From: Halanaerobium hydrogeniformans
Lineage (GTDB): Bacteria; Bacillota; Halanaerobiia; Halanaerobiales; Halanaerobiaceae
Assembly: GCF_000166415.1 (NCBI RefSeq)
Contig: NC_014654.1
Span: 1,302,001 to 1,366,000, forward strand
Length of the DNA stretch: 64,000 bases
Direction: 5' to 3'
Under the pieces are notes generated by a model. It was not told the DNA's origin, ran no database searches, and saw only the letters and a program-made list of their open reading frames with translations. Positions 18,998 through 30,993 of the stretch are shown here, piece after piece. Both the position numbers and the translations under genes were made by a program. The number at the start of each line of letters is the position of its first letter. The first letter of the stretch is position 1.

Positions 18998-19047
18998 TTC
19001 AATAGATTTGATTACATTAATTTATGATTATCTTGGAGGGTAAAAAA

Positions 19048-21168
19048 ATGAAAATTAGTTCTAGAACTAAGAAGATATTGGAAATACTGCTCACAAACGA
19101 AAATTATGTTGTTATTGATTTTATAGCAGAAAAACTTGGAGTTAGTTCTCGTACTATTTTAAGAGCTTTACCCAGGGTAGAATCCTGGCTTGAAAAAAAT
19201 GACTTTAAGCTAGAGAAAAAAAAGGGGACAGGAATTCGACTTGACTGCAGTCTAGAAGAAAAAGAGAAGATTAAAAATCTACTTAATATTGAATCTGTTG
19301 AGAATTATTATTCTCCTGAAGAAAGAAGACTGATAATCTTGGCTGAGTTATTGAAAACTCAAGAGGCTACAAAGTTATTTAACTTTACAATGCTGACAAA
19401 TGTATCTGAAGCAACAATAAGTCATGACTTAGATGAAATTGAAGAATGGATAGAAAAGTATAATTTAAAACTAGTTCGCAAACCTGGTCTGGGTGTTTAT
19501 CTAAAGGGTAGAGAAAAAGATATCAGAAGAGCAAGCATAAATTTACTTTATGATAATTTAGATCTACAGGAAATATTTGATATCATGCAGAACAAATTTA
19601 ACGAAAATACTAAGGATACAAAGAGAACAAATTTATCAAGAAGTAGACTTTTAAATCTGATTGGCTTAGATACAATTCATCTCCTCGATAATTTTATTCA
19701 AGAACTAGAAGAAAATTTAGATTATAAGTTGGCTGATGATTCATATGTGGCTTTGATGGTTCATTTAGCAATCGCTTTAAAAAGAATAAAAAATGGAGAA
19801 AAAATTGTAATAAAAGAAGAAATATTAGATGAATTAAAAAAGAGCAAAGAATATCCAATTGCTGTCTCACTAATTGCTAAGATAGCTGAAGCATTTTCTA
19901 TGGATATTCCAGAAGCAGAAATCGGCTATGTGACAATGCATCTTAGGGGAAGTAAAGGTAGAGGTGGTTTTTATAACGATAATATCTCTATAACTGATGA
20001 TTATAAATTAGTATTATTGACCAAAAAAATTATTGAAAAAGCAGAAATTGAACTCGGCATTTATCTAGAAGATGATGATGAATTATTGATTGGATTGGTT
20101 AGACATTTAGAACCTACGATTAACAGAATTAAGTTAAACCTTGATATTCGAAATCCTCTCTTAGATGAAATAAAAGAACAATATGCTGAACTTTTTAAAG
20201 TTTCACAAAAATGTGCAGATATTATTGCTGAAAATGAAAAGATAGATGTGCCAGATTCAGAAGCAGCTTATATTGCCATGCATTTAGGAGCAGCAATAGC
20301 TAGAAAAAAAACACCTGTTAAGAAATTCAGAGCAGCAGTGGCCTGTACTAGTGGGATAGGAGCTTCAAGACTTCTAGCTTCGAGATTAAACTCAGAGTTT
20401 GAAAATTTAGAAGTGGTTGCATTAATTTCAACGATAGATTTTAACAATCAAGAAATATCTAAAATGAATGTTGATCTTATTATATCAACGGTTTCTATTC
20501 CTAAAAGCAATGTTCCAGTTATTGTAGTTAATCCTCTTTTAACTGATAAGCATCAAAGAAAGATAAATGAATTTCTAGCAACTCATAAAGCTGCTAAAAG
20601 AAAAATTAATAGTAATAACATCAGTCTTAAAGAAAAATTATCAATTATAAATAAATATAACCAAAGAATTTTAGAAGTTTTAAATAATTTTGAACTTCAA
20701 AATAATTATAAATACAAAAATCTTGAGCAATTATTAAGTGATGCTGCAGAACTATTAGCTGATAATGGAGACGAAAAAAAGGTTATACAAAAAGATTTAT
20801 CTTTGCGTGAAGAAAAGGGAAGTACAGTATTAGAACACAATAAAATACTATTATTACACTGCAGAAGTAAGGTAGTAGAAGAAGTTAAATTTATCGTTAT
20901 CAGACCGGAAAATAAATTTAAAATTTTAAATGAAGATAAAAATAAGGCAGAAATTGAGATTGTTGTTGTTATGGCAGCACCTTTAAAAGGAGCTGAACAG
21001 GGAAGAGAAGTTTTAAGTGAAATCAGTCGACTCTTAATTGAAAGTACAAGTTTTATTAAAGCAATTAATTCAGGACTAAAAAATGAAGTTTATTTTGAGA
21101 TGGCAGAGTATTTTGATCATTTTTTACAACAAAAAAGTACTATGGAATATCACAAGGAGGAAAAATAA
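19048..21168 (+). CDS. mtlR: MtlR-like PRD-domain PTS transcriptional regulator
   Basis: 706 residues from ATG 19048 (GGAGGG 19035-19040, 7 nt upstream); an in-frame ATG at 19024 lacks a site. Domains in order: a DeoR-like helix-turn-helix (LGVSSRTILRALPRVE), a second HTH (about 85-150) and PRD1 around LADDSYVALMVHLAIALKR. PRD2 follows around LIGLVRHLEPTINR and AAYIAMHLGAAIARK, then an EIIB-like domain with AVACTSGIGASRLLASRL, and an EIIA-like C-terminus. This is the architecture of mannitol activator MtlR, whose activity is set by phosphorylation from HPr and the EII proteins. It is the first gene of a five-gene operon and abuts the EIICBA gene directly. Confidence 0.88.
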   Translation: MKISSRTKKILEILLTNENYVVIDFIAEKLGVSSRTILRALPRVESWLEKNDFKLEKKKGTGIRLDCSLEEKEKIKNLLNIESVENYYSPEERRLIILAELLKTQEATKLFNFTMLTNVSEATISHDLDEIEEWIEKYNLKLVRKPGLGVYLKGREKDIRRASINLLYDNLDLQEIFDIMQNKFNENTKDTKRTNLSRSRLLNLIGLDTIHLLDNFIQELEENLDYKLADDSYVALMVHLAIALKRIKNGEKIVIKEEILDELKKSKEYPIAVSLIAKIAEAFSMDIPEAEIGYVTMHLRGSKGRGGFYNDNISITDDYKLVLLTKKIIEKAEIELGIYLEDDDELLIGLVRHLEPTINRIKLNLDIRNPLLDEIKEQYAELFKVSQKCADIIAENEKIDVPDSEAAYIAMHLGAAIARKKTPVKKFRAAVACTSGIGASRLLASRLNSEFENLEVVALISTIDFNNQEISKMNVDLIISTVSIPKSNVPVIVVNPLLTDKHQRKINEFLATHKAAKRKINSNNISLKEKLSIINKYNQRILEVLNNFELQNNYKYKNLEQLLSDAAELLADNGDEKKVIQKDLSLREEKGSTVLEHNKILLLHCRSKVVEEVKFIVIRPENKFKILNEDKNKAEIEIVVVMAAPLKGAEQGREVLSEISRLLIESTSFIKAINSGLKNEVYFEMAEYFDHFLQQKSTMEYHKEEK

Positions 21169-23055
21169 ATGACTAAGAGTAGTTTTCAAAATAGTGTACA
21201 GAGTTTTGGTAGATTTTTAAGTGGGATGGTTATGCCTAATATTGGAGCATTTATTGCCTGGGGTTTAATCACAGCCCTATTTATTCCAACTGGTTGGCTT
21301 CCTAATGAAGGGCTTGCTTCTTTAGTTGGACCTATGATTACTTATCTATTACCTCTATTAATCGCATTTTCTGGTGGTAAATTAGTAGCAGGTATTAGAG
21401 GTGGAGTAATCGGTGCTGTAGCGACTATGGGTGTTATCGTTGGTTCTGATATCCCAATGTTTATTGGAGCAATGTTGATGGGACCACTTGGTGGGTATAC
21501 TATAAAAAAAGTTGATCAGCTTTTTGAAGGCAATGTTAAATCTGGCTTTGAAATGCTCGTCAGTAACTTTTCAGCGGGTATTGTTGGTGGTGCACTTGCA
21601 ATATTAGCCTTCCAGATTATAGGACCTGTTGTTTATGGGCTAAATACGGTTTTAGCAGCTGGAGTTGAATTTATAGTTAATCAGGGATTATTACCTTTAT
21701 CATCTCTGTTTGTAGAACCTGCTAAAATACTCTTTTTAAATAATGCTATAAATCATGGTGTATTAAGTCCACTGGGAATCCAAGAGGCAGCAGAAGCCGG
21801 AAGATCGATCTTCTTTATGTTAGAAACTAATCCTGGCCCGGGTTTAGGTGTTTTACTGGCTTACTGGGTATTTGCAAAAGGGATGATAAAACAATCAGCA
21901 CCTGGTGCAATTATTATCCATTTCTTTGGTGGAATTCATGAAATTTATTTCCCATATGTATTAATGAAACCATCACTTTTATTAGCTGTTATTGGTGGTG
22001 GAGCAAGTGGAGTATTCGTATTCAATTTGTTAGGAGCTGGTTTAGTTGCTACTCCTTCTCCTGGTAGTATATTTGCCTATATCGCAATGACACCAAGGGG
22101 AGCTTTGTTTTCAGTACTCTCAGGTGTAGTGGTTTCAACGGTTGTTTCTTTTGCAATAGCCTCTGCATTAATTAAAAGATCTGCTGATAAAGGTGAGGAA
22201 TTAAGCCTGGATGCAGCAACTAATAAATTAAGAGACATGAAAGGTAGAGATTTGCATAATGAAAAAAAATCAGGTGAAAAGTCATATAGTGCTGATGAAA
22301 TTAATAAAATAGTATTTGCCTGTGATGCTGGTATGGGTTCAAGTGCAATGGGAGCAAGTCGACTTCGTAAAAAATTAGAAAATGTTGGCTCTGATATTAC
22401 TGTTGTTAATAAAGCAATCGAAGAAATACCACAGGATGCACAAATAGTTATTACTCATAAAAATTTAACCGAGCGGGCCAAAAAAGCTGCTCCCAAGGCA
22501 GAACATGTCTCAATAGATGATTTTTTACAGACTCCTGCCTATGACATGTTAGTTAATAGAATTAAAAAAGGTTTAGAAGAAAAAAAAACTGAAGTAAAAA
22601 CAGTAAAAAAAGAATCTGAAGAAAAATTAAATAAAAATATATTGAAGAAAAAAAATATTAAACTTGGCCTTGAAAGTGTTGAAAGAGATGAAGCAATTAA
22701 AATGGCTGGTAATCTTCTTTATGAAAGCGGATATGTAGATGAAGACTATATCGATGCTATGCTTGACAGGGAAGAAGAGTTAACAACTTATATTGGTCAG
22801 GGTGTAGCAATACCACATGGTGTTGGAAGTGCTAAAAAGAAAATAAAGAAAACTGGTATTTCAATTCTTCAGTTTCCAGAAGGAGTAGATTTTGATGGAG
22901 AAACTGCCTATCTTGTAATTGGTATTGCAGGCCTTGGTAATGAACACTTAAAAGTACTGGCTAATTTATCAGAACTGATTGAAAATGACGAAACAGCAGA
23001 AAAACTAAGAAAAACAGATGATCTTGATTATATTTATAATAAGTTTACATTATAA
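21169..23055 (+). CDS. mtlA: PTS mannitol-type EIICBA transporter
   Basis: 628 residues, ATG 21169, immediately after the regulator stop, with AAGGAGG 9 nt upstream inside that gene. The EIIC domain (1-340) has GMVMPNIGAFIAWGLITALF and FFGGIHEIYFPYVLMKP, both typical of mannitol EIIC. EIIB follows with the phosphocysteine in FACDAGMGSSAMGASRL (C385), then EIIA with the phosphohistidine in GVAIPHGVGSAKKK (H550). It imports a hexitol and phosphorylates it during transport. The match is to the mannitol class. Unlike most mannitol operons there is no mtlD; a kinase and a SorE-like dehydrogenase follow instead, so the true substrate or route may differ. Confidence 0.9.
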   Translation: MTKSSFQNSVQSFGRFLSGMVMPNIGAFIAWGLITALFIPTGWLPNEGLASLVGPMITYLLPLLIAFSGGKLVAGIRGGVIGAVATMGVIVGSDIPMFIGAMLMGPLGGYTIKKVDQLFEGNVKSGFEMLVSNFSAGIVGGALAILAFQIIGPVVYGLNTVLAAGVEFIVNQGLLPLSSLFVEPAKILFLNNAINHGVLSPLGIQEAAEAGRSIFFMLETNPGPGLGVLLAYWVFAKGMIKQSAPGAIIIHFFGGIHEIYFPYVLMKPSLLLAVIGGGASGVFVFNLLGAGLVATPSPGSIFAYIAMTPRGALFSVLSGVVVSTVVSFAIASALIKRSADKGEELSLDAATNKLRDMKGRDLHNEKKSGEKSYSADEINKIVFACDAGMGSSAMGASRLRKKLENVGSDITVVNKAIEEIPQDAQIVITHKNLTERAKKAAPKAEHVSIDDFLQTPAYDMLVNRIKKGLEEKKTEVKTVKKESEEKLNKNILKKKNIKLGLESVERDEAIKMAGNLLYESGYVDEDYIDAMLDREEELTTYIGQGVAIPHGVGSAKKKIKKTGISILQFPEGVDFDGETAYLVIGIAGLGNEHLKVLANLSELIENDETAEKLRKTDDLDYIYNKFTL

Positions 23056-23100
23056 ATGTTTGCAGTAAACTATAATTAACAATTAAGGATGGATAAAAAA

Positions 23101-24030
23101 ATGATTAAAACATTAACTTTAAATCCAGCTCTTGATAAAACAATAATTGTGGAAGATTTTAAAATTGATAGTTTAAATAGAATTAAAAAAGTTTTTCGTG
23201 ATGCTGGAGGTAAGGGAATAAATGTATCAAAAATGATAAGCAATTTAGGTGGCATTACCACTGCTTCAGGTTTTTTAGGTGGTGATGCCGGTTCATTTAT
23301 CAAAAATGAGCTGGAAAAAGAGAATATAAAGCACGATTTTATTGAGGTTGAAGGAGAGACAAGAACCAATCTGAAAATGGTTGATAAAATTCAAAATACT
23401 TTTACTGACATTAACGAAAAAGGTGTTTATGTTAGTAATAATAAGCTAAATGAAATAAAAAAAGAACTTTTTTCTGATTTAAATAAAGGGGACATACTGG
23501 TTTTATCAGGTAGTGTTCCAGATGGAGTAGAAGCTAATATTTATCAGGAATTAATTGAAATAGCTCACCAAAAAGAAGTTAAAACTATTTTAGATGCAGA
23601 TGGAGTTCTTTTTGAAAATGCATTAAAAGCTTGCCCAAGCTTAATAAAACCAAATGAACATGAACTGGCTCTTTATTATGGTAGAGATTTTAATAATCAA
23701 GAAGAAATGATTGAAGCAGCAAAAGAGTTTTTTCGCTATGGAGTGGAGAAAATTATGCTGTCACTTGGTAAAGAAGGAGCAGTATTTTTAACAGAAGAGG
23801 AAGTTATAAAAATAGAAGCACTAGAATTAGATGTTAAAAGTACGTTTGGAGCTGGAGATGCAATGGTTGCAGGACTTGCAATAGCCCTAGAAAATAATCT
23901 TAAAATAAACGAAATGATAACTCTTGCAGCAGCTTGCAGTAGTGCAAGTTTAATTAATGAGGGTACTGAGATGGGTAAAAAAGAAGATGTCAATAATCTA
24001 AAGAATAAAATAAGATATTACTATATTTAG
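23101..24030 (+). CDS. fruK: 1-phosphofructokinase-like PfkB-family kinase
   Basis: 309 residues from ATG 23101 (MIKTLTLNPALDKT, the usual FruK start); AAGGATGG lies 9 nt upstream and overlaps an alternative ATG at 23089. PfkB signatures are AGGKGINVSKMISNLGG near the N-terminus and STFGAGDAMVAGLAIALE near the C-terminus, with the catalytic Asp in GAGD. The family phosphorylates ketohexose-1-phosphates (fructose-1-phosphate, or tagatose-6-phosphate in LacC) to bisphosphates. Its place between the mannitol-type EII and a SorE-like dehydrogenase suggests that the operon produces a ketose-1-phosphate. Fructose-1-phosphate is the most likely substrate, with tagatose- or sorbose-phosphates as alternatives. 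Confidence 0.82.
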   Translation: MIKTLTLNPALDKTIIVEDFKIDSLNRIKKVFRDAGGKGINVSKMISNLGGITTASGFLGGDAGSFIKNELEKENIKHDFIEVEGETRTNLKMVDKIQNTFTDINEKGVYVSNNKLNEIKKELFSDLNKGDILVLSGSVPDGVEANIYQELIEIAHQKEVKTILDADGVLFENALKACPSLIKPNEHELALYYGRDFNNQEEMIEAAKEFFRYGVEKIMLSLGKEGAVFLTEEEVIKIEALELDVKSTFGAGDAMVAGLAIALENNLKINEMITLAAACSSASLINEGTEMGKKEDVNNLKNKIRYYYI

Positions 24031-24043
24031 AAAGGTGATTATA

Positions 24044-25300
24044 ATGAAAACAAGAGCTGTTAGATTATATGGAGAAAATGATTTAAGACTGGAAGAGTTT
24101 GAATTACCAGAAATTAATGATGATGAGATATTAGCAAAAATTATTTCAAATAGCATCTGCATGTCAACTTACAAAGCTGTTATACAGGGAGCGAGACATA
24201 AAAGAGTTCCCAATGATGTTGCTGATAATCCAACTTTAACCGGACATGAATTTGCAGGTGAAATTGTAGAGGTTGGGGCTGATCTAAAAGATGAATTTGA
24301 AGTTGGTCAAAAATTTGCTGTACAACCGGCTTTAAATTATAAAGGTAGTCCTTATGCACCTGGATATTCCTATCCACATTTTGGTGGTAATAGTGAATAT
24401 GCAATAATCCCTAAAGAAGTAATGGAATTAGGCTACTTATTAAAATATGAAGGAGAAGCTTTTTACGAAGCATCTCTATCAGAACCAATGTCATGTATTA
24501 TTGGTGGATATCATGCAGTTTATCACACCGAAAGCAATAACTATATTCATAAAATGGGAATTGTTGAAGGTGGTAAAACTGCTTTACTTGGAGCTGCTGG
24601 ACCAATGGGCTTAGGAGCAATTGATTATGCACTTCATGCAGATAGAAAACCCTCTGTTTTAGTTGTTACTGATATTGATCAGGACCGTCTTGATAGAGCA
24701 GCTTCTTTATTTACTCAAGAGGAAGCTCAAAAGCAGGGTGTAGAACTCCATTTTATTAATACTGCTGATTTAGATGATGTTCCTGCAGAGTTGAGAAAAA
24801 TTGTTGATGGGGACGGTTATGATGATGTATTTGTATATGCTCCTGTAAGAGAATTAGTTGAACAGGGTGATCAAATATTAGGCAAAGATGGCTGTATGAA
24901 CTTTTTTGCCGGACCAACAGACAAAGAATTTTCTGCAGAAGTTAATTTTTATAAAATCCATTATTCACCAACCCACATTATGGGTTCAACCGGTGGAAAT
25001 GATGATGATATGAGAGAATCATTAAAAATGTCTGCAGAAGGTAAAATTAATCCGGCAACCATGATTACCCATGTCGGCGGGCTTGATAGTGCAGCTGATA
25101 CTATTTTAAATCTTCCGGATATACCAGGTGGTAAAAAGTTGGTTTATACAGGCATTGATATGGAATTAACTGCAATTGATGATTTTAAAAACAAAGCAGA
25201 TCAAAGTCAAATTTTTGCAGACTTGGCAGAGATAATCGAGAAGCATAATGGACTCTGGTCAGAAGAAGCAGAAAAATATCTGCTTAAAAAATGCAAATAA
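24044..25300 (+). CDS. SorE-like zinc-dependent polyol/ketose-phosphate dehydrogenase
   Basis: 418 residues from ATG 24044 (AAAGGTG at 24030-24036). The medium-chain dehydrogenase fold is clear: zinc-site segments NSICMSTYK and LTGHEFAGEIVEVG, and the nucleotide loop LLGAAGPMGLGAIDYA. The N-terminus RLYGENDLRLEEFELPEI and the block GARHKRVPNDVADNP resemble L-sorbose-1-phosphate reductase (SorE), which interconverts a ketose-1-phosphate and a hexitol-6-phosphate. Here it probably oxidises the phosphorylated hexitol imported by the EIICBA. With D-mannitol-1-phosphate, oxidation at C2 would give fructose-1-phosphate, the substrate of the upstream kinase. Family recognition is from memory, and the substrate is inferred. 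Confidence 0.75.
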   Translation: MKTRAVRLYGENDLRLEEFELPEINDDEILAKIISNSICMSTYKAVIQGARHKRVPNDVADNPTLTGHEFAGEIVEVGADLKDEFEVGQKFAVQPALNYKGSPYAPGYSYPHFGGNSEYAIIPKEVMELGYLLKYEGEAFYEASLSEPMSCIIGGYHAVYHTESNNYIHKMGIVEGGKTALLGAAGPMGLGAIDYALHADRKPSVLVVTDIDQDRLDRAASLFTQEEAQKQGVELHFINTADLDDVPAELRKIVDGDGYDDVFVYAPVRELVEQGDQILGKDGCMNFFAGPTDKEFSAEVNFYKIHYSPTHIMGSTGGNDDDMRESLKMSAEGKINPATMITHVGGLDSAADTILNLPDIPGGKKLVYTGIDMELTAIDDFKNKADQSQIFADLAEIIEKHNGLWSEEAEKYLLKKCK

Positions 25301-25321
25301 CTTATAAGGAGTAAGATATTA

Positions 25322-25600
25322 ATGGTAAAAACTGAAATTGAACTGAAACATGAAGAAGGCTTTCATGCAAGACCGGCAGGACTTTTTGTTAAAACTGCCT
25401 CAAAATATAATTCAGAGATTAAGCTTTTAAAAAATGGTGATCAAAATAAAGAATATAATCCTAAAAGCATTATTTCAATTATGAGTATGGGAGCAATTAA
25501 AGGTGACAGAATAACTATCATTGCTGATGGCCAGGATGAAAAAGAAGCCGTTGAAAATTTAAGATCACTGGTAGAAAATGATTTTGTAATTCCAAATTAG
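25322..25600 (+). CDS. ptsH: Phosphocarrier protein HPr
   Basis: 92 residues with the phosphohistidine in EEGFHARPAGLFVK (H15). The regulatory serine region is NPKSIISIMSMGA, where S49 matches Ser46 of Bacillus HPr, so HPr kinase control is possible. HPr passes phosphate from enzyme I to EIIA domains. AAGGAG lies about 12 nt before ATG 25322. It is the last gene of the operon, 21 bp after the dehydrogenase, and a strong terminator follows. No enzyme I gene is visible in the window, so this may be either the general HPr or one dedicated to this operon. Confidence 0.92.
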   Translation: MVKTEIELKHEEGFHARPAGLFVKTASKYNSEIKLLKNGDQNKEYNPKSIISIMSMGAIKGDRITIIADGQDEKEAVENLRSLVENDFVIPN

Positions 25601-25624: not shown

Positions 25625-25666
25625 AAACCCAGCATTCACTTTTTAATAAGTGTTTGCTGGGTTTTT
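25625..25666 (+). terminator. Rho-independent terminator ending the PTS operon
   Basis: AAACCCAGCA (25625-25634) pairs perfectly with TGCTGGGTTT (25655-25664), with inner CACTT/AAGTG pairing, and ends in T. Confidence 0.9.
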
Positions 25667-25842
25667 AACTTTTATAGGTTTTTTTAGGTTAGTAATAATA
25701 TTAATTTTTAAAAAATTATTAATAATAGTTACTATTTTCGTGTTATTTTCGATTTTTATTCGAGTAAATTTCTTAATTATTTTGATAAAATATTTTCAGA
25801 AGATATGAATAAATTATTATTTTGAGCTGGGAGGTGAGAACT

Positions 25843-28800
25843 GTGATAAAATTGAATCAAAAATTTTCATTATTTTTATTAATATTAATTCTATCCATAA
25901 TTTATAATATGCAAGTACAGGCAGAAATCTATCCAACTCAGGTAAAACTTATAATACAGTCCAGACAGGCAATAGTAGGACAGGATGATTTTTTTGAAAT
26001 TATAGAAATGGATGAGTATATATTAATACCTTTAGTATCACTTTCTAGATGGCTTGATATTGACTTAAATTATGACCGAAATAATAAGTTGCTAACAGTT
26101 TATTATGAAGAAAAAGATATTAATTTAATTGTAGATTTAAAATATAAAATTTATTATGATTTTCCAGATTGGTCAAAAGATCCTCCCAAAATTGTAGAGG
26201 GAGATTTTTATGTCGCAGTAGATCTGATTGAACATTTAACAGGTGCTAAAGTTGATTGGCAGCCTAGAAGACAGGAGTTGGTGCTTGATTATGACTATTC
26301 TGAGTTAGAAGATGGAGAAAAGATCACTGAAGTCAGAATTAAAAAAAGGCCGGATGAAATTATAATAGAACCTGAAGTCACTGGCCCTGATTTTTATCTA
26401 GCAGCTATTCAATATAAATTTGGTTTTGATTATGAATTTACCGATGAACCTGATGATGATTCTTTAGAGTTTAATAAGATTCTTTATTTGTATGGGCGAG
26501 CAGGTGACTGGGCAATATCTACAGGTCACACATTAGAATATGATTTTGATAGTGAAGAATATGAGTTTGAAAACAAGCTTTTAAGAGCTAGAAATATAGA
26601 AAATGATCGAATAATAATAATCGGAGATAATAAATTTAGATTTCCCAACACAATTGGAAGAACAGATATCAGAGGTTTTTATCTTCAATATCCGCTTCAA
26701 CAGATAAGTGACAGAAGAGCATATACTGCTGTAAGTGGTGAAGCGGAAGAAGGAAGCAATGTTACTTTATATGTTAATGATAGAAAGATAGACAACAAAT
26801 ATCTATATCAAGGTGAAAGTGAATATTATTTTGAAAATGTTCCTATAACAGAAGAAAGAACAAATATAATTAGAATATTAATAGAAGATATTGATGGCAG
26901 GGAAACTGAAATAGTTAAAAAGGTTGCTGGTAGTTTAAATGTTTTTCCAAAAGGCACTAATGAAGGGGTATATACTTTTGGCAGCAACAACAGAAGAACT
27001 GATTCAGAATCATTTTTTGAACTTGGTGGTATGCAGATAAAATATGCACCTTCTGCAGGTACTTCTTTGTTCTGGGAGCTTGGAGTGGAAAAAATTTATA
27101 ATAATTCTGATTCTGATGATTATAATCTTGGTAATTTACTTCGCGTTGCTGTAAGTCCTGAAGACCTTCCTTTAGTTTTTTTAGCAGATTGGTTAGCTGG
27201 CAGAGATGTAGATTTAGTTGAGCACGGTGTAAGAGCAAGTACACTTTATACTAAGGAAGACGGATATATAAAAGCGTCAGTTGCTTATGTTCCTCCATTA
27301 GTTGAAAAAAGAGTAAATGCAGATGCCGGACAACAGGCTTTAATAAACTTAGAAAAAGAGCTCAATCAAAACTGGAATTTAGATTTAGGATTAGAAAATC
27401 ATCGTTCAATCCTGGATATGGATAATTTTGAAGTAAGTACTATCAATTTAGCTTTTGACTATAGTGATAAGGCTAGAAATACATTAACTATTGCAGCTGA
27501 ATATGGAAACAGAGAAGAAGAAATTTACTGGAGAAGTTTAGATTTCACAGAAACTGGGCGTGATTGGTTTGATATTAGCTTAACTGGTAGAACTTTTAGG
27601 GGACCAGCTCGTCTGGGAAGCGAAATAATCTATGTCATCTCTGATATTGATTTCTATGATGATTTAGAAGATATTGATCTTTCAAAAAGAGAAGATTTTG
27701 CTTCAGTAAAATTAAATTTAAGCAGTAGTTTAACAGATAATTTAGTTTTAAGTGGTGGTTTATCATCTTCATTTACCTGGCTGGAAGGTGATCGACTTGA
27801 AAGTGATGCTGATGTTGATTTAAGGGTTAGGTTAAAAACTGGAGATTATACCTCAATTACTGCGGGAATTTCTACTGATATTGATTACAGAAAAGATAAA
27901 TACGGATTTGAATCAACATCTGAAGTACAGGAAGTGGAATTATTTTTAAGGCACGATATTCCAAGAAGTATTACTCTGACAACTGGTGTGAAAAAAACTT
28001 TTTTAGATGATGAAAGTTATCTGAGAAGTAATGCCGGTTTGGATTATGATAATCCAGATAATGACTGGAGATTGAGCTTAGACTATGAATATATAGCTCC
28101 ATATGGGACTAGAGAAAATCCACAACAGAAATATGGAATTGGATTTAAAAAACATTTATTTTCAGGCTTAGAAGCTCTATTTAATTTTGAGAGAACCTTT
28201 GCTTCTTCTAGAAGTGAAGAGCCTGTTTATGAAGCTTCTATATATTTGAGTCAGGTTCTTGGTTTTACAAAGGATAGAGTTATTGGTCAAAAATATCCTA
28301 GAATACAAAGAGAAACTTATAATTCATTTATTGCAGGTCTTGTTTATTTAGATATAAATGGAACTGGAAAAAGAGATCCAGGTGATCCCCTTTTATCAGG
28401 GATAAGTATTTCTAACGATGGTCGTAGGATAAATACAGATGAGGAAGGCTATTTTATTTTTGAAAACCTTAGAAGTGGATTATATAAAATAGGTTTTAAC
28501 TTAAGAGAGCTTCCCGAAGAATATAAGGTGCTTACCCAGGATAAGGTTATACAAATTAGAGAAAACGAAAATATATTTCTTGAATTTGCTTTGACACAAA
28601 TGGGAGAACTAAAAGGAAAAATTACTCTTGATCAAGATAAATTCATTGAAAAATATACAGAAGATATCCAGATAAACTTAATCAAATTTGAAATTGTAGA
28701 ACTTAATCGGATTATTTTCAGTAGAAGTGATGGTAGTTTTATAGCTAGAAATATCCCTTTGGGTCAATACAAATTGCGAGTTGTAGAAGATTCTTTACCT

Positions 28801-28902
28801 GAAGGAACTATGCTGGAAGAAAAAGGAATTTATGAGTTCGATATAACTACTGATAGTTTAGTAAATCAGGATATTAAAATCACTTTAGTTCCGAGCAATT
28901 AA
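25843..28902 (+). CDS. Large exported usher-like/outer-membrane beta-barrel protein with SdrD-like and CnaB-like ends
   Basis: 1019 residues from GTG 25843, with GGGAGGTGAG at about 25829-25838. A signal peptide (LFLLILILSIIYNMQVQA) is followed by copper-amine-oxidase-N-like folds (about 25-145; LIPLVSLSRWLDIDL, then YVAVDLIEHLTGAKVDW). Next is an usher-like region with IIGDNKFRFPNTIGRTDIRG and VSGEAEEGSNVTLYVND. Residues about 380-825 alternate polar and hydrophobic positions with many aromatic strand ends, as in a beta-barrel. An SdrD-like B domain (GLVYLDINGTGKRDPGDPLL, from about 830) and a second Ig/CnaB-like domain end it. It should sit in an outer membrane, so the host would be diderm. 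Role: secretion pore or surface assembly, by inference. No chaperone gene is adjacent. Confidence 0.65.
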   Translation: MIKLNQKFSLFLLILILSIIYNMQVQAEIYPTQVKLIIQSRQAIVGQDDFFEIIEMDEYILIPLVSLSRWLDIDLNYDRNNKLLTVYYEEKDINLIVDLKYKIYYDFPDWSKDPPKIVEGDFYVAVDLIEHLTGAKVDWQPRRQELVLDYDYSELEDGEKITEVRIKKRPDEIIIEPEVTGPDFYLAAIQYKFGFDYEFTDEPDDDSLEFNKILYLYGRAGDWAISTGHTLEYDFDSEEYEFENKLLRARNIENDRIIIIGDNKFRFPNTIGRTDIRGFYLQYPLQQISDRRAYTAVSGEAEEGSNVTLYVNDRKIDNKYLYQGESEYYFENVPITEERTNIIRILIEDIDGRETEIVKKVAGSLNVFPKGTNEGVYTFGSNNRRTDSESFFELGGMQIKYAPSAGTSLFWELGVEKIYNNSDSDDYNLGNLLRVAVSPEDLPLVFLADWLAGRDVDLVEHGVRASTLYTKEDGYIKASVAYVPPLVEKRVNADAGQQALINLEKELNQNWNLDLGLENHRSILDMDNFEVSTINLAFDYSDKARNTLTIAAEYGNREEEIYWRSLDFTETGRDWFDISLTGRTFRGPARLGSEIIYVISDIDFYDDLEDIDLSKREDFASVKLNLSSSLTDNLVLSGGLSSSFTWLEGDRLESDADVDLRVRLKTGDYTSITAGISTDIDYRKDKYGFESTSEVQEVELFLRHDIPRSITLTTGVKKTFLDDESYLRSNAGLDYDNPDNDWRLSLDYEYIAPYGTRENPQQKYGIGFKKHLFSGLEALFNFERTFASSRSEEPVYEASIYLSQVLGFTKDRVIGQKYPRIQRETYNSFIAGLVYLDINGTGKRDPGDPLLSGISISNDGRRINTDEEGYFIFENLRSGLYKIGFNLRELPEEYKVLTQDKVIQIRENENIFLEFALTQMGELKGKITLDQDKFIEKYTEDIQINLIKFEIVELNRIIFSRSDGSFIARNIPLGQYKLRVVEDSLPEGTMLEEKGIYEFDITTDSLVNQDIKITLVPSN

Positions 28903-29162: not shown

Positions 29163-30905
29163 ATGAATAAAAAAAGCTTATTTTCTATTTCAGTAGTCCT
29201 TATTTTAACACTATTGATGGTTTTTGGTGTGTTTTTAACTACAAATGTTTTGGCAGTTGAACCTGAATATATTTCTGGAAATGATCAAGCCCTTCCAAGT
29301 GATATACGAGCATTGGATTCATATAAATTTGATCCAGTTGATCTTGGTATAACAACTAGAAGTGGTATTACAATTGATGTATATGACACCACAAGAGGTC
29401 AGGAGTTTGACTGGGAATCTAATAGGGCGATCGCATATGTTTTTGTTAAAGGTGGCCCTGGTGGTAATCTTTACGATTATACTCCTGGAGCAACTTCAGG
29501 GGATGGCCTTCATGCACCTGAAGCACCTAGTGGAAATTGGCATGGTTTAAGCCATATAACATTTTATTTTTCTGATGAAGAGTTAACAGGTGAGCTATTG
29601 ATAACCAAACAGTTTGAGTTAGGCGATGTAGTAGGAGATGTAGACTTCCCTGATTCTATCACAGTGGAAGTAACAGGTCCTTCCTATCTTGAAGGCGAAC
29701 TAGTTACCATAGATATCGATGCTGATGGTTATGGTGATATACTTTTAGAGAACCTGATCCCCGGTGACTATGATGTAGAAGAATTGGACTTTGAAGGCTC
29801 AGATGCCTGGGATTCCGATATAGTCGGTTCACCAGCAACAGTTGTGGCAGGAGCTACAGCAGTAGTAGAGGTTAATATCACCAACAGCTATTTAACAGGT
29901 GAGCTATTGATAACCAAACAGTTCGAGTTAGGAGATGTAGTAGGAGATGTAGACTTCCCTGATTCTATCACAGTGGAAGTAACAGGTCCTTCCTATCTTG
30001 AAGGCGAACTAGTTACCATAGATATCGATGCTGATGGTTATGGTGATATACTTTTAGAGAACCTGATCCCCGGTGACTATGATGTAGAAGAATTGGACTT
30101 TGAAGGCTCAGATGCCTGGGATTCCGATATAGTCGGTTCACCAGCAACAGTTGTGGCAGGAGCTACAGCAACAGTAGAGGTTAATATCACCAACAGCTAT
30201 TTAACAGGTGAGCTATTGATAACCAAACAGTTCGACTTAGGCGATGTAGTAGGAGATGTAGACTTCCCTGATTCTATCACAGTTGAAGTAACAGGTGAAT
30301 CATATCCTAATGGTGAGTTAGTTACCATAGATATCGATGCTGATGGTTATGGTGAAAAACTCTTAGAGAACCTGATCCCTGGTCTCTATTATGTAGAAGA
30401 GTTGGACTTTGATGGCTCAGAAATCTGGGATTCTATTATAGTCGGTTCCCCAGCAGAAGTTGTAGCAGGAGCTGCAGCAGCAGTAGAGGTTAATATCTTT
30501 AATAACTTTATAATGGCTGCTGAAACTGCCTGGGCTGCTCACGATGTTGGAGAATTTAGATATAATCCTGGCAGAGGTGGTAACTGGGCAACTTATGTTG
30601 AATATGCAGTTATTCTTGAAGATGGTGGCGTAGCAAATATTTATGCAGGTCAATCTGAATATGTAGGTTATGTAGTATTTATAGAAGATGGTAATTATGT
30701 AGACATTGAAGTTTATCTAGAAGATTGGGCATTTGAACCTGGTACCATTAATTTATATGTCCAGGATTATAGTGACCAACCTAGTGGAAATCCTGCTCCT
30801 GGAAGATTTGATTTTAAAGCAACAGAATCAGGTCTTGAAGCTAGTATTAGAGTTCCACTAAATGATTACTATGGTATCCACTTAAATGTCTATCAACTAT
30901 ATTAA
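29163..30905 (+). CDS. Secreted protein with three tandem CnaB-like repeats
   Basis: 580 residues, ATG 29163 with AAGGAGG 8 nt upstream. A signal peptide ends near NVLA. An N-terminal domain (about 32-140) is followed by three 103-residue repeats, each starting LTGELLITKQF and ending VNITNSY or similar. Each repeat has a Lys in ITKQF, a Glu in VEELDF and an Asn near the end, the arrangement that forms internal Lys-Asn isopeptide bonds in CnaB domains. A distinct C-terminal domain (about 450-580) follows. There is no LPXTG motif or lipobox. It lies 260 bp after the usher-like gene and is probably displayed or exported by the same system (inference). Confidence 0.72.
   Translation: MNKKSLFSISVVLILTLLMVFGVFLTTNVLAVEPEYISGNDQALPSDIRALDSYKFDPVDLGITTRSGITIDVYDTTRGQEFDWESNRAIAYVFVKGGPGGNLYDYTPGATSGDGLHAPEAPSGNWHGLSHITFYFSDEELTGELLITKQFELGDVVGDVDFPDSITVEVTGPSYLEGELVTIDIDADGYGDILLENLIPGDYDVEELDFEGSDAWDSDIVGSPATVVAGATAVVEVNITNSYLTGELLITKQFELGDVVGDVDFPDSITVEVTGPSYLEGELVTIDIDADGYGDILLENLIPGDYDVEELDFEGSDAWDSDIVGSPATVVAGATATVEVNITNSYLTGELLITKQFDLGDVVGDVDFPDSITVEVTGESYPNGELVTIDIDADGYGEKLLENLIPGLYYVEELDFDGSEIWDSIIVGSPAEVVAGAAAAVEVNIFNNFIMAAETAWAAHDVGEFRYNPGRGGNWATYVEYAVILEDGGVANIYAGQSEYVGYVVFIEDGNYVDIEVYLEDWAFEPGTINLYVQDYSDQPSGNPAPGRFDFKATESGLEASIRVPLNDYYGIHLNVYQLY
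29583..30509 (+). repeat. Three tandem 309-bp repeats inside the CnaB-repeat gene
   Basis: Units are 29583-29891, 29892-30200 and 30201-30509. Units 1 and 2 differ at four bases by my count; unit 3 is clearly diverged around SYPNGELVT and in its last third. The near identity at silent sites shows a recent duplication or gene conversion. Confidence 0.9.
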
Positions 30906-30964: not shown

Positions 30965-30993
30965 TAAACCCCGAATTTTAATTTCGGGGTTTA
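30965..30993. terminator. Hairpin between convergent genes, likely terminator
   Basis: TAAACCCCGAA (30965-30975) pairs perfectly with TTCGGGGTTTA (30983-30993). T-runs on either side are weak, but it lies exactly between the CnaB-repeat gene and the minus-strand DUF3159 gene. Confidence 0.6.

Follow-up and report, generated by a model that had tools for sequence, protein, structure and literature searches.

We analysed a window of 64,000 nucleotides from the genome of Halanaerobium hydrogeniformans, and all coordinates of the locus given below are those of this window. On its forward strand, the open reading frame of a putative outer-membrane usher homologue is followed by the gene of a predicted secreted repeat protein. 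The features are:

25626-25668, + strand: terminator-like hairpin 5' of the usher gene, between PTS/HPr genes and the usher (direct sequence reading)
25843-28902, + strand: putative orphan usher homologue, 1019 aa (open reading frame, ribosome-binding site, usher homology)
25843-25923, + strand: signal-peptide-like N-terminus, residues 1-27 (sequence reading)
25930-26322, + strand: predicted N-terminal periplasmic domain, residues ~30-160, Cu_amine_oxidN1-like (Pfam, 33 bits)
26398-26712, + strand: predicted first barrel strands, residues ~186-290 (aligned by profile with FimD-type ushers)
26713-26952, + strand: predicted plug domain, residues ~291-370, Ig-like (profile alignment, AF2 fragment)
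26953-28287, + strand: predicted rest of the barrel, residues ~371-815 (strand alternation and bridging-usher alignment; weak in isolation)
28318-28899, + strand: two predicted C-terminal beta-sandwich domains (SdrD_B-like, SpaA-like), residues ~826-1019 (Pfam; weak usher-CTD profile match with bridging sequences)
29163-30905, + strand: candidate cargo, predicted secreted protein of 580 aa in which three CnaB-like repeats lie between a conserved N-terminal domain and a C-terminal module (sequence and profile)
29163-29627, + strand: N-terminal domain of the candidate cargo, ~155 aa with signal peptide, the domain itself ~120 aa (profile search)
29583-30497, + strand: three tandem repeats of 309 bp (93% matches) encoding the CnaB-like repeats (repeat analysis)
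30965-30993, strand not assigned: palindromic terminator-like hairpin of 11 pairs past the candidate cargo gene (score from the - strand)

The usher frame starts with GTG at 25843 and its stop codon ends at 28902. Since GGAGGTG lies immediately 5' of this GTG, the TTG at 25822 is unlikely to be the start; the Pfam residue numbers that follow refer to the 1026-aa frame opening at this TTG, and the protein read from the GTG comprises 1019 aa. Pfam called a Cu_amine_oxidN1 domain (residues 61-152; 33 bits against a cut-off of 24.2), which occupies the place of the usher N-terminal domain, and a SpaA domain of CnaB-like prealbumin fold (residues 965-1012; 27.4 bits against 23.1). SdrD_B stayed below its threshold (residues 840-907; 27.6 against 29.7), no Pfam domain was called in the central region and, even at E-values up to 5, Pfam reported no POTRA domain anywhere in the frame. 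Single-sequence searches (phmmer) delivered neither an NCBIfam nor a PDB match. A preliminary description of the locus had its coordinates and layout right, including the barrel-like centre discussed below. It had also called the domain order unusual. This holds for the Cu-amine-oxidase-like domain, which is odd at the N-terminus, but the SdrD/SpaA-like domains at the C-terminus match in position the pair of domains with which ushers end, and that part of the order is thus usher-like.

The gene is present in a single copy in the genome of H. hydrogeniformans, which consists of one contig of 2.61 Mb. Its nearest named relative, Halanaerobium polyolivorans, carries an intact and syntenic copy with 82% identity, and dN/dS between the two is 0.13, within the range of neighbouring genes. 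Being intact at this identity in a second species and given this dN/dS, the frame is not a chance ORF, and the data support that the gene is under purifying selection. Upstream lies a fructose-PTS-like operon (regulator, EII, 1-phosphofructokinase-like, dehydrogenase and HPr-like genes; 19024-25600), which is kept in H. polyolivorans as well and is separated from the usher gene by the first of the two hairpins.

A profile of the window usher family (A1) was built from 23 sequences of the class Halanaerobiia; the family is present in 22 of the 61 genomes searched. Compared by hhalign with nine FimD-type ushers, A1 reached a probability of 82.5 and a score of 59.7 over 264 collinear columns, with residues 135-424 aligned to 130-407, which covers the first strands and the plug. 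The control scores were far lower, with a maximum of 22.6 among 60 column shuffles and 25.0 for the reversed profile. Most single FimD-type ushers gave their best A1 alignment at the plug position too, while no such alignment was obtained with LptD, FhuA, BamA, FepA, PgaA and two other barrels. Divergent usher-like genes of other Halanaerobial genomes (G018, G030, G042, G046), which adjoin chaperone-like genes, bridge the two groups: in profile comparison they match A1 at 99.9 over 760 columns and the FimD-type ushers at 97.7 over 588 columns, near full length.

Tested part by part, the profile similarity is strong for the first strands and the plug, whereas the remaining barrel and the C-terminal domains gave weak signals. 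The N-terminal domain scored 16.2 against that of ushers, which is not significant given a shuffle maximum of 14.8. For the C-terminal domains, A1 alone gave no match to those of ushers, and inclusion of the bridging sequences led to a weak match (29.8 against a shuffle maximum of 14.7). One C-terminal stretch of the family resembles that of EcpC, whereas the alpha-usher profile did not match the family. A profile search of the PDB with the family returned matches to SdrD-type and similar domains only, and the Pfam Usher model (PF00577) exceeded its curated cut-off in none of 59 genomes. Weak matches to this model at G057:C16 and C4:62716 were rejected, as they belong to other barrel-like proteins that are apparently peptidase-like. 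In genome G057, two proteins of ~850 aa (L079, 5413-7926; L080, 5282-7852) combine a peptidase-like N-terminus with a barrel-like C-terminus and match the Pfam model weakly by chance. On these comparisons, the window ORF is supported as a divergent outer-membrane usher homologue, beyond mere resemblance. The proposal of an usher-like outer-membrane protein in a diderm is thereby sustained, by FimD-type profile homology, controlled with shuffled and reversed profiles and with other barrels, and by the relatives that are linked to chaperone genes; the profile comparison suggested along with it succeeded for the FimD type and failed for alpha ushers. As far as testable, the protein would be a divergent usher with no new fold, and not the new type of pore that had been envisioned.

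Structural signals point in the same direction. Over ~450 residues of the central region, hydrophobicity alternates with a period of two residues, with z = 5.0 in the orphan clade described below and z = 7.7 in the whole family; the same measure gave z = 4.0 for the barrel of the FimD family. This alternation and the usher alignment suggest that the region may form an outer-membrane barrel, which in the usher superfamily has ~24 strands. A plug domain appears to be inserted after the first barrel strands, as in the usher superfamily. Structure prediction, also suggested in the preliminary description, was informative for one part: full-length AF2 with two input sequences delivered no usable fold (pLDDT 29), whereas the plug fragment modelled alone reached a pLDDT of 79.7 and is Ig-like. 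Foldseek retrieved generic Ig folds for this fragment, with the plugs of Caf1A (Z 7.3) and FimD (Z 7.0) tied with titin. Because of this tie with unrelated Ig domains, the structural match merely corroborates the alignment.

Relatives of the window gene occur next to chaperone genes. In 13 genomes, a gene of ~270 aa (F1b) precedes the usher-like gene, usually with genes of ~280 aa (F1a) and ~265 aa (F2) ahead of it; all three products have signal-like N-termini. This gene order is that expected of a subunit-subunit-chaperone-usher operon, and because of it we refer to F1a and F2 as candidate subunits. The F1b profile matches FimC-like and EcpB-like chaperones with probabilities of 94.3 and 93.9, comparable to the 95.6 between these two groups, and scored 56-57 against at most 21 for shuffled profiles; its sole PDB match is EcpB. 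By its profile, F1b is a predicted remote chaperone of the PapD/EcpB superfamily. At the loci of the bridging ushers, two chaperone-like genes pass Pfam PapD_N in a protein scan, and DUF4402 genes are present. Apart from the signal peptide, F2 had no real resemblance to FimA, EcpA, SCPU or DUF4402, and F1a matched DUF4402 weakly (probability 67, without a null comparison). The profiles and gene order indicate that a chaperone-usher branch exists in diderm Firmicutes and that the Pfam usher model misses it; no published description of such a branch in Halanaerobiia was found in the literature searched.

Further loci add to the diversity of these systems. Tandem operons with two ushers occur in three genomes (L036, L037 and L038 in G047, G049 and G051), the second usher comprising ~925 aa without the last C-terminal domain. 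A decayed chaperone-usher locus (L056, G049:C133, 5757-10813) shows internal stops, a fused F1a-F1b frame and an inserted transposase-looking ORF. A gene family of ~390 aa (F6), possibly a transcriptional regulator, is often found upstream of chaperone-linked operons (L036, L038, L044, L046, L048, L049). Besides, secreted proteins of ~505-544 aa are clustered with other secreted proteins at L088, L093, L094, L099 and L114 (G028, G022, G045, G049 and G036, respectively). Four of them are hit by the chaperone profile, in some cases along repeated stretches, and the clusters may belong to an assembly system of a related kind that has WxLIP-like domains.

The window usher itself belongs to a monophyletic clade (support 100) of six members (genomes G000, G010, G003, G020, G026 and G032), G000 being the window genome (H. 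hydrogeniformans), which is one contig and 99% complete. This clade is sister (support 98) to the second ushers of the tandem operons in G047, G049 and G051. Profile searches detected no chaperone, F2 or F1a in G000, G010, G020 and G026. In G000, two chaperone profiles, PapD_N and DUF4402 found nothing genome-wide; the observation that no chaperone gene lies nearby was therefore correct and extends to the whole genome. G032 yielded no chaperone or F1a and one F2-like protein, and G003 carries, besides its orphan usher, a chaperone-linked locus of another type. The F2-like protein of G032 (L097, G032:C106, 3-1001) adjoins a lipoprotein-like ORF of 845 aa and could be a second cargo candidate. 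Since chaperone and subunits were searched for and none was found, we name the window locus an orphan usher homologue and not a chaperone-usher system. Within the clade, the plug (0.68) and the N-terminal domain (0.62) are among the best-conserved parts, and the second C-terminal domain is the least conserved (0.43).

The downstream gene at 29163-30905 has its own ribosome-binding site and encodes a signal peptide. No terminator-like site was found on the + strand between it and the usher gene; as hairpins lie before the usher and after its neighbour, both genes may share one transcript. Among 59 genomes, a profile of the neighbour's N-terminal domain found exactly one copy in each of G000, G010, G020 and G032, and elsewhere a single marginal match (G023, E = 9e-4); as these same four members had gone into the profile, more distant homologues could escape it. 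All four genomes are among the six with orphan ushers, which by counting corresponds to p = 3e-5, uncorrected for kinship. In three of the four, the gene adjoins the orphan usher, downstream in G000 and G010 and divergently in G020; given that G000 and G010 are syntenic, the adjacency is seen in just two arrangements. The neighbour in G020 comprises 767 aa and shares the N-terminal domain (28.5% identity over ~180 residues) with different repeats, the homologue in G032 lies on another contig than the usher, and the domain was not found in the fragmented assemblies of G003 and G026. The C-terminal module occurs in genomes without orphan ushers as well and was left out of the cargo evidence. A pilin-like identity of the N-terminal domain was rejected, as it lacks similarity to pilin-type subunits.

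How might such a pair function? The window protein most likely works like an usher. As the neighbour is present in one copy, has an N-terminal domain limited to orphan-usher genomes and is mostly adjacent, we favour a stand-alone gated pore for this one dedicated, Sec-exported repeat protein, a reading to which we give slightly better than an even chance. Gene linkage and phylogenetic profile thus speak, short of proof, for the secretion pore for the CnaB-repeat protein proposed in the preliminary description. In known ushers, the N-terminal domain recruits the cargo, the plug gates the barrel and the C-terminal domains hold the passing chain. By analogy, the repeat protein would be exported by Sec and recognised, probably via its conserved N-terminal domain; the N-terminal domain of the usher would receive it, the plug would gate the barrel that it is inserted in, and the two C-terminal domains would hold the chain as it passes the outer membrane through the pore. 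Barrel formation, secretion, plug gating and cargo recognition are what we infer here, like every step after Sec export. By descent, the orphan usher stands closest to the second ushers of the tandem operons, and chaperone and subunit genes are gone in its clade. The fuller scenario, in which a duplicated usher of a fimbrial operon evolved into a chaperone-free two-component secretion system with export directed by the N-domain, we put forward tentatively, at somewhat less than an even chance.

Other readings share parts of this evidence. The usher could still build a fimbria from a chaperone and subunits encoded elsewhere and too divergent to detect; the conserved N-terminal domain and plug of the orphan clade, the F2-like protein of G032 and class chaperones so divergent that Pfam misses most of them would all fit. 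However, the chaperone, PapD_N and DUF4402 searches were negative in the complete genome G000, from which F2 and F1a are likewise absent, and we regard this reading as unlikely. Quite unlikely, too, is a repurposed outer-membrane protein that exports nothing, such as a structural protein or a gated porin, its neighbour being linked otherwise, for example by co-regulation. The lack of chaperone and pilin and the poor conservation of the second C-terminal domain agree with it, but the plug and N-terminal domain, the gating and recruitment parts of known ushers, are among the best-conserved ones, and the N-domain of the candidate cargo co-occurs with orphan ushers. Finally, the domains recognised by Pfam are beta-sandwich or small mixed folds and the plug model is Ig-like, as would be expected of a secreted stack of beta-sandwich domains without any barrel. 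Against the collinear usher alignment, the bridging ushers and the strand alternation over 450 residues, we consider such a stack very improbable.

In Halanaerobiia, a whole chaperone-bearing branch lies below Pfam usher detection, and one of its clades is orphan yet conserved and likely has a cargo of its own. This would bear on the age of usher pathways in diderm Firmicutes and make the chaperone-free working of an usher testable; export of the single neighbouring protein would be an unusual use of an usher. Classical and alternative chaperone-usher pathways were described as confined to beta- and gamma-proteobacteria, and archaic ones as occurring in proteobacteria, Cyanobacteria and Deinococcus-Thermus (PMC4654587); among the 458 operons of an E. 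coli survey, no orphan usher was found (PMC3559732).

Compared with FimD/PapC-type ushers (gamma, pi and archaic sigma), the window usher is alike in its signal peptide, the collinear first strands and plug, the two predicted C-terminal beta-sandwich domains and the chaperone gene that its relatives follow. It differs in falling below the Pfam Usher cut-off, in its Cu-amine-oxidase-like N-terminal and SdrD/SpaA-like C-terminal domains and in standing without chaperone or subunit genes. With the alpha pathway (EcpBC/CfaAC) the family shares the EcpC-like C-terminal stretch, and its relatives' chaperone has EcpB as only PDB match, whereas the usher family itself does not match the alpha-usher profile. 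The nearest precedent is CupB3/CupB5 of P. aeruginosa, where an usher is required to secrete a large non-pilin partner encoded nearby: this partner, the TpsA-like CupB5, is not secreted without the P-usher CupB3 (Ruer 2008, as described in PMC3031594), which has a POTRA domain and operates with two chaperones and pilins. In contrast, neither chaperone or pilin genes nor a Pfam POTRA were detected at the window locus. Two-partner (type Vb) secretion differs in that the window pore is a putative usher homologue for which Pfam calls no POTRA, yet it is alike by analogy, as it pairs one pore with one large cargo of conserved N-terminal domain and variable body.
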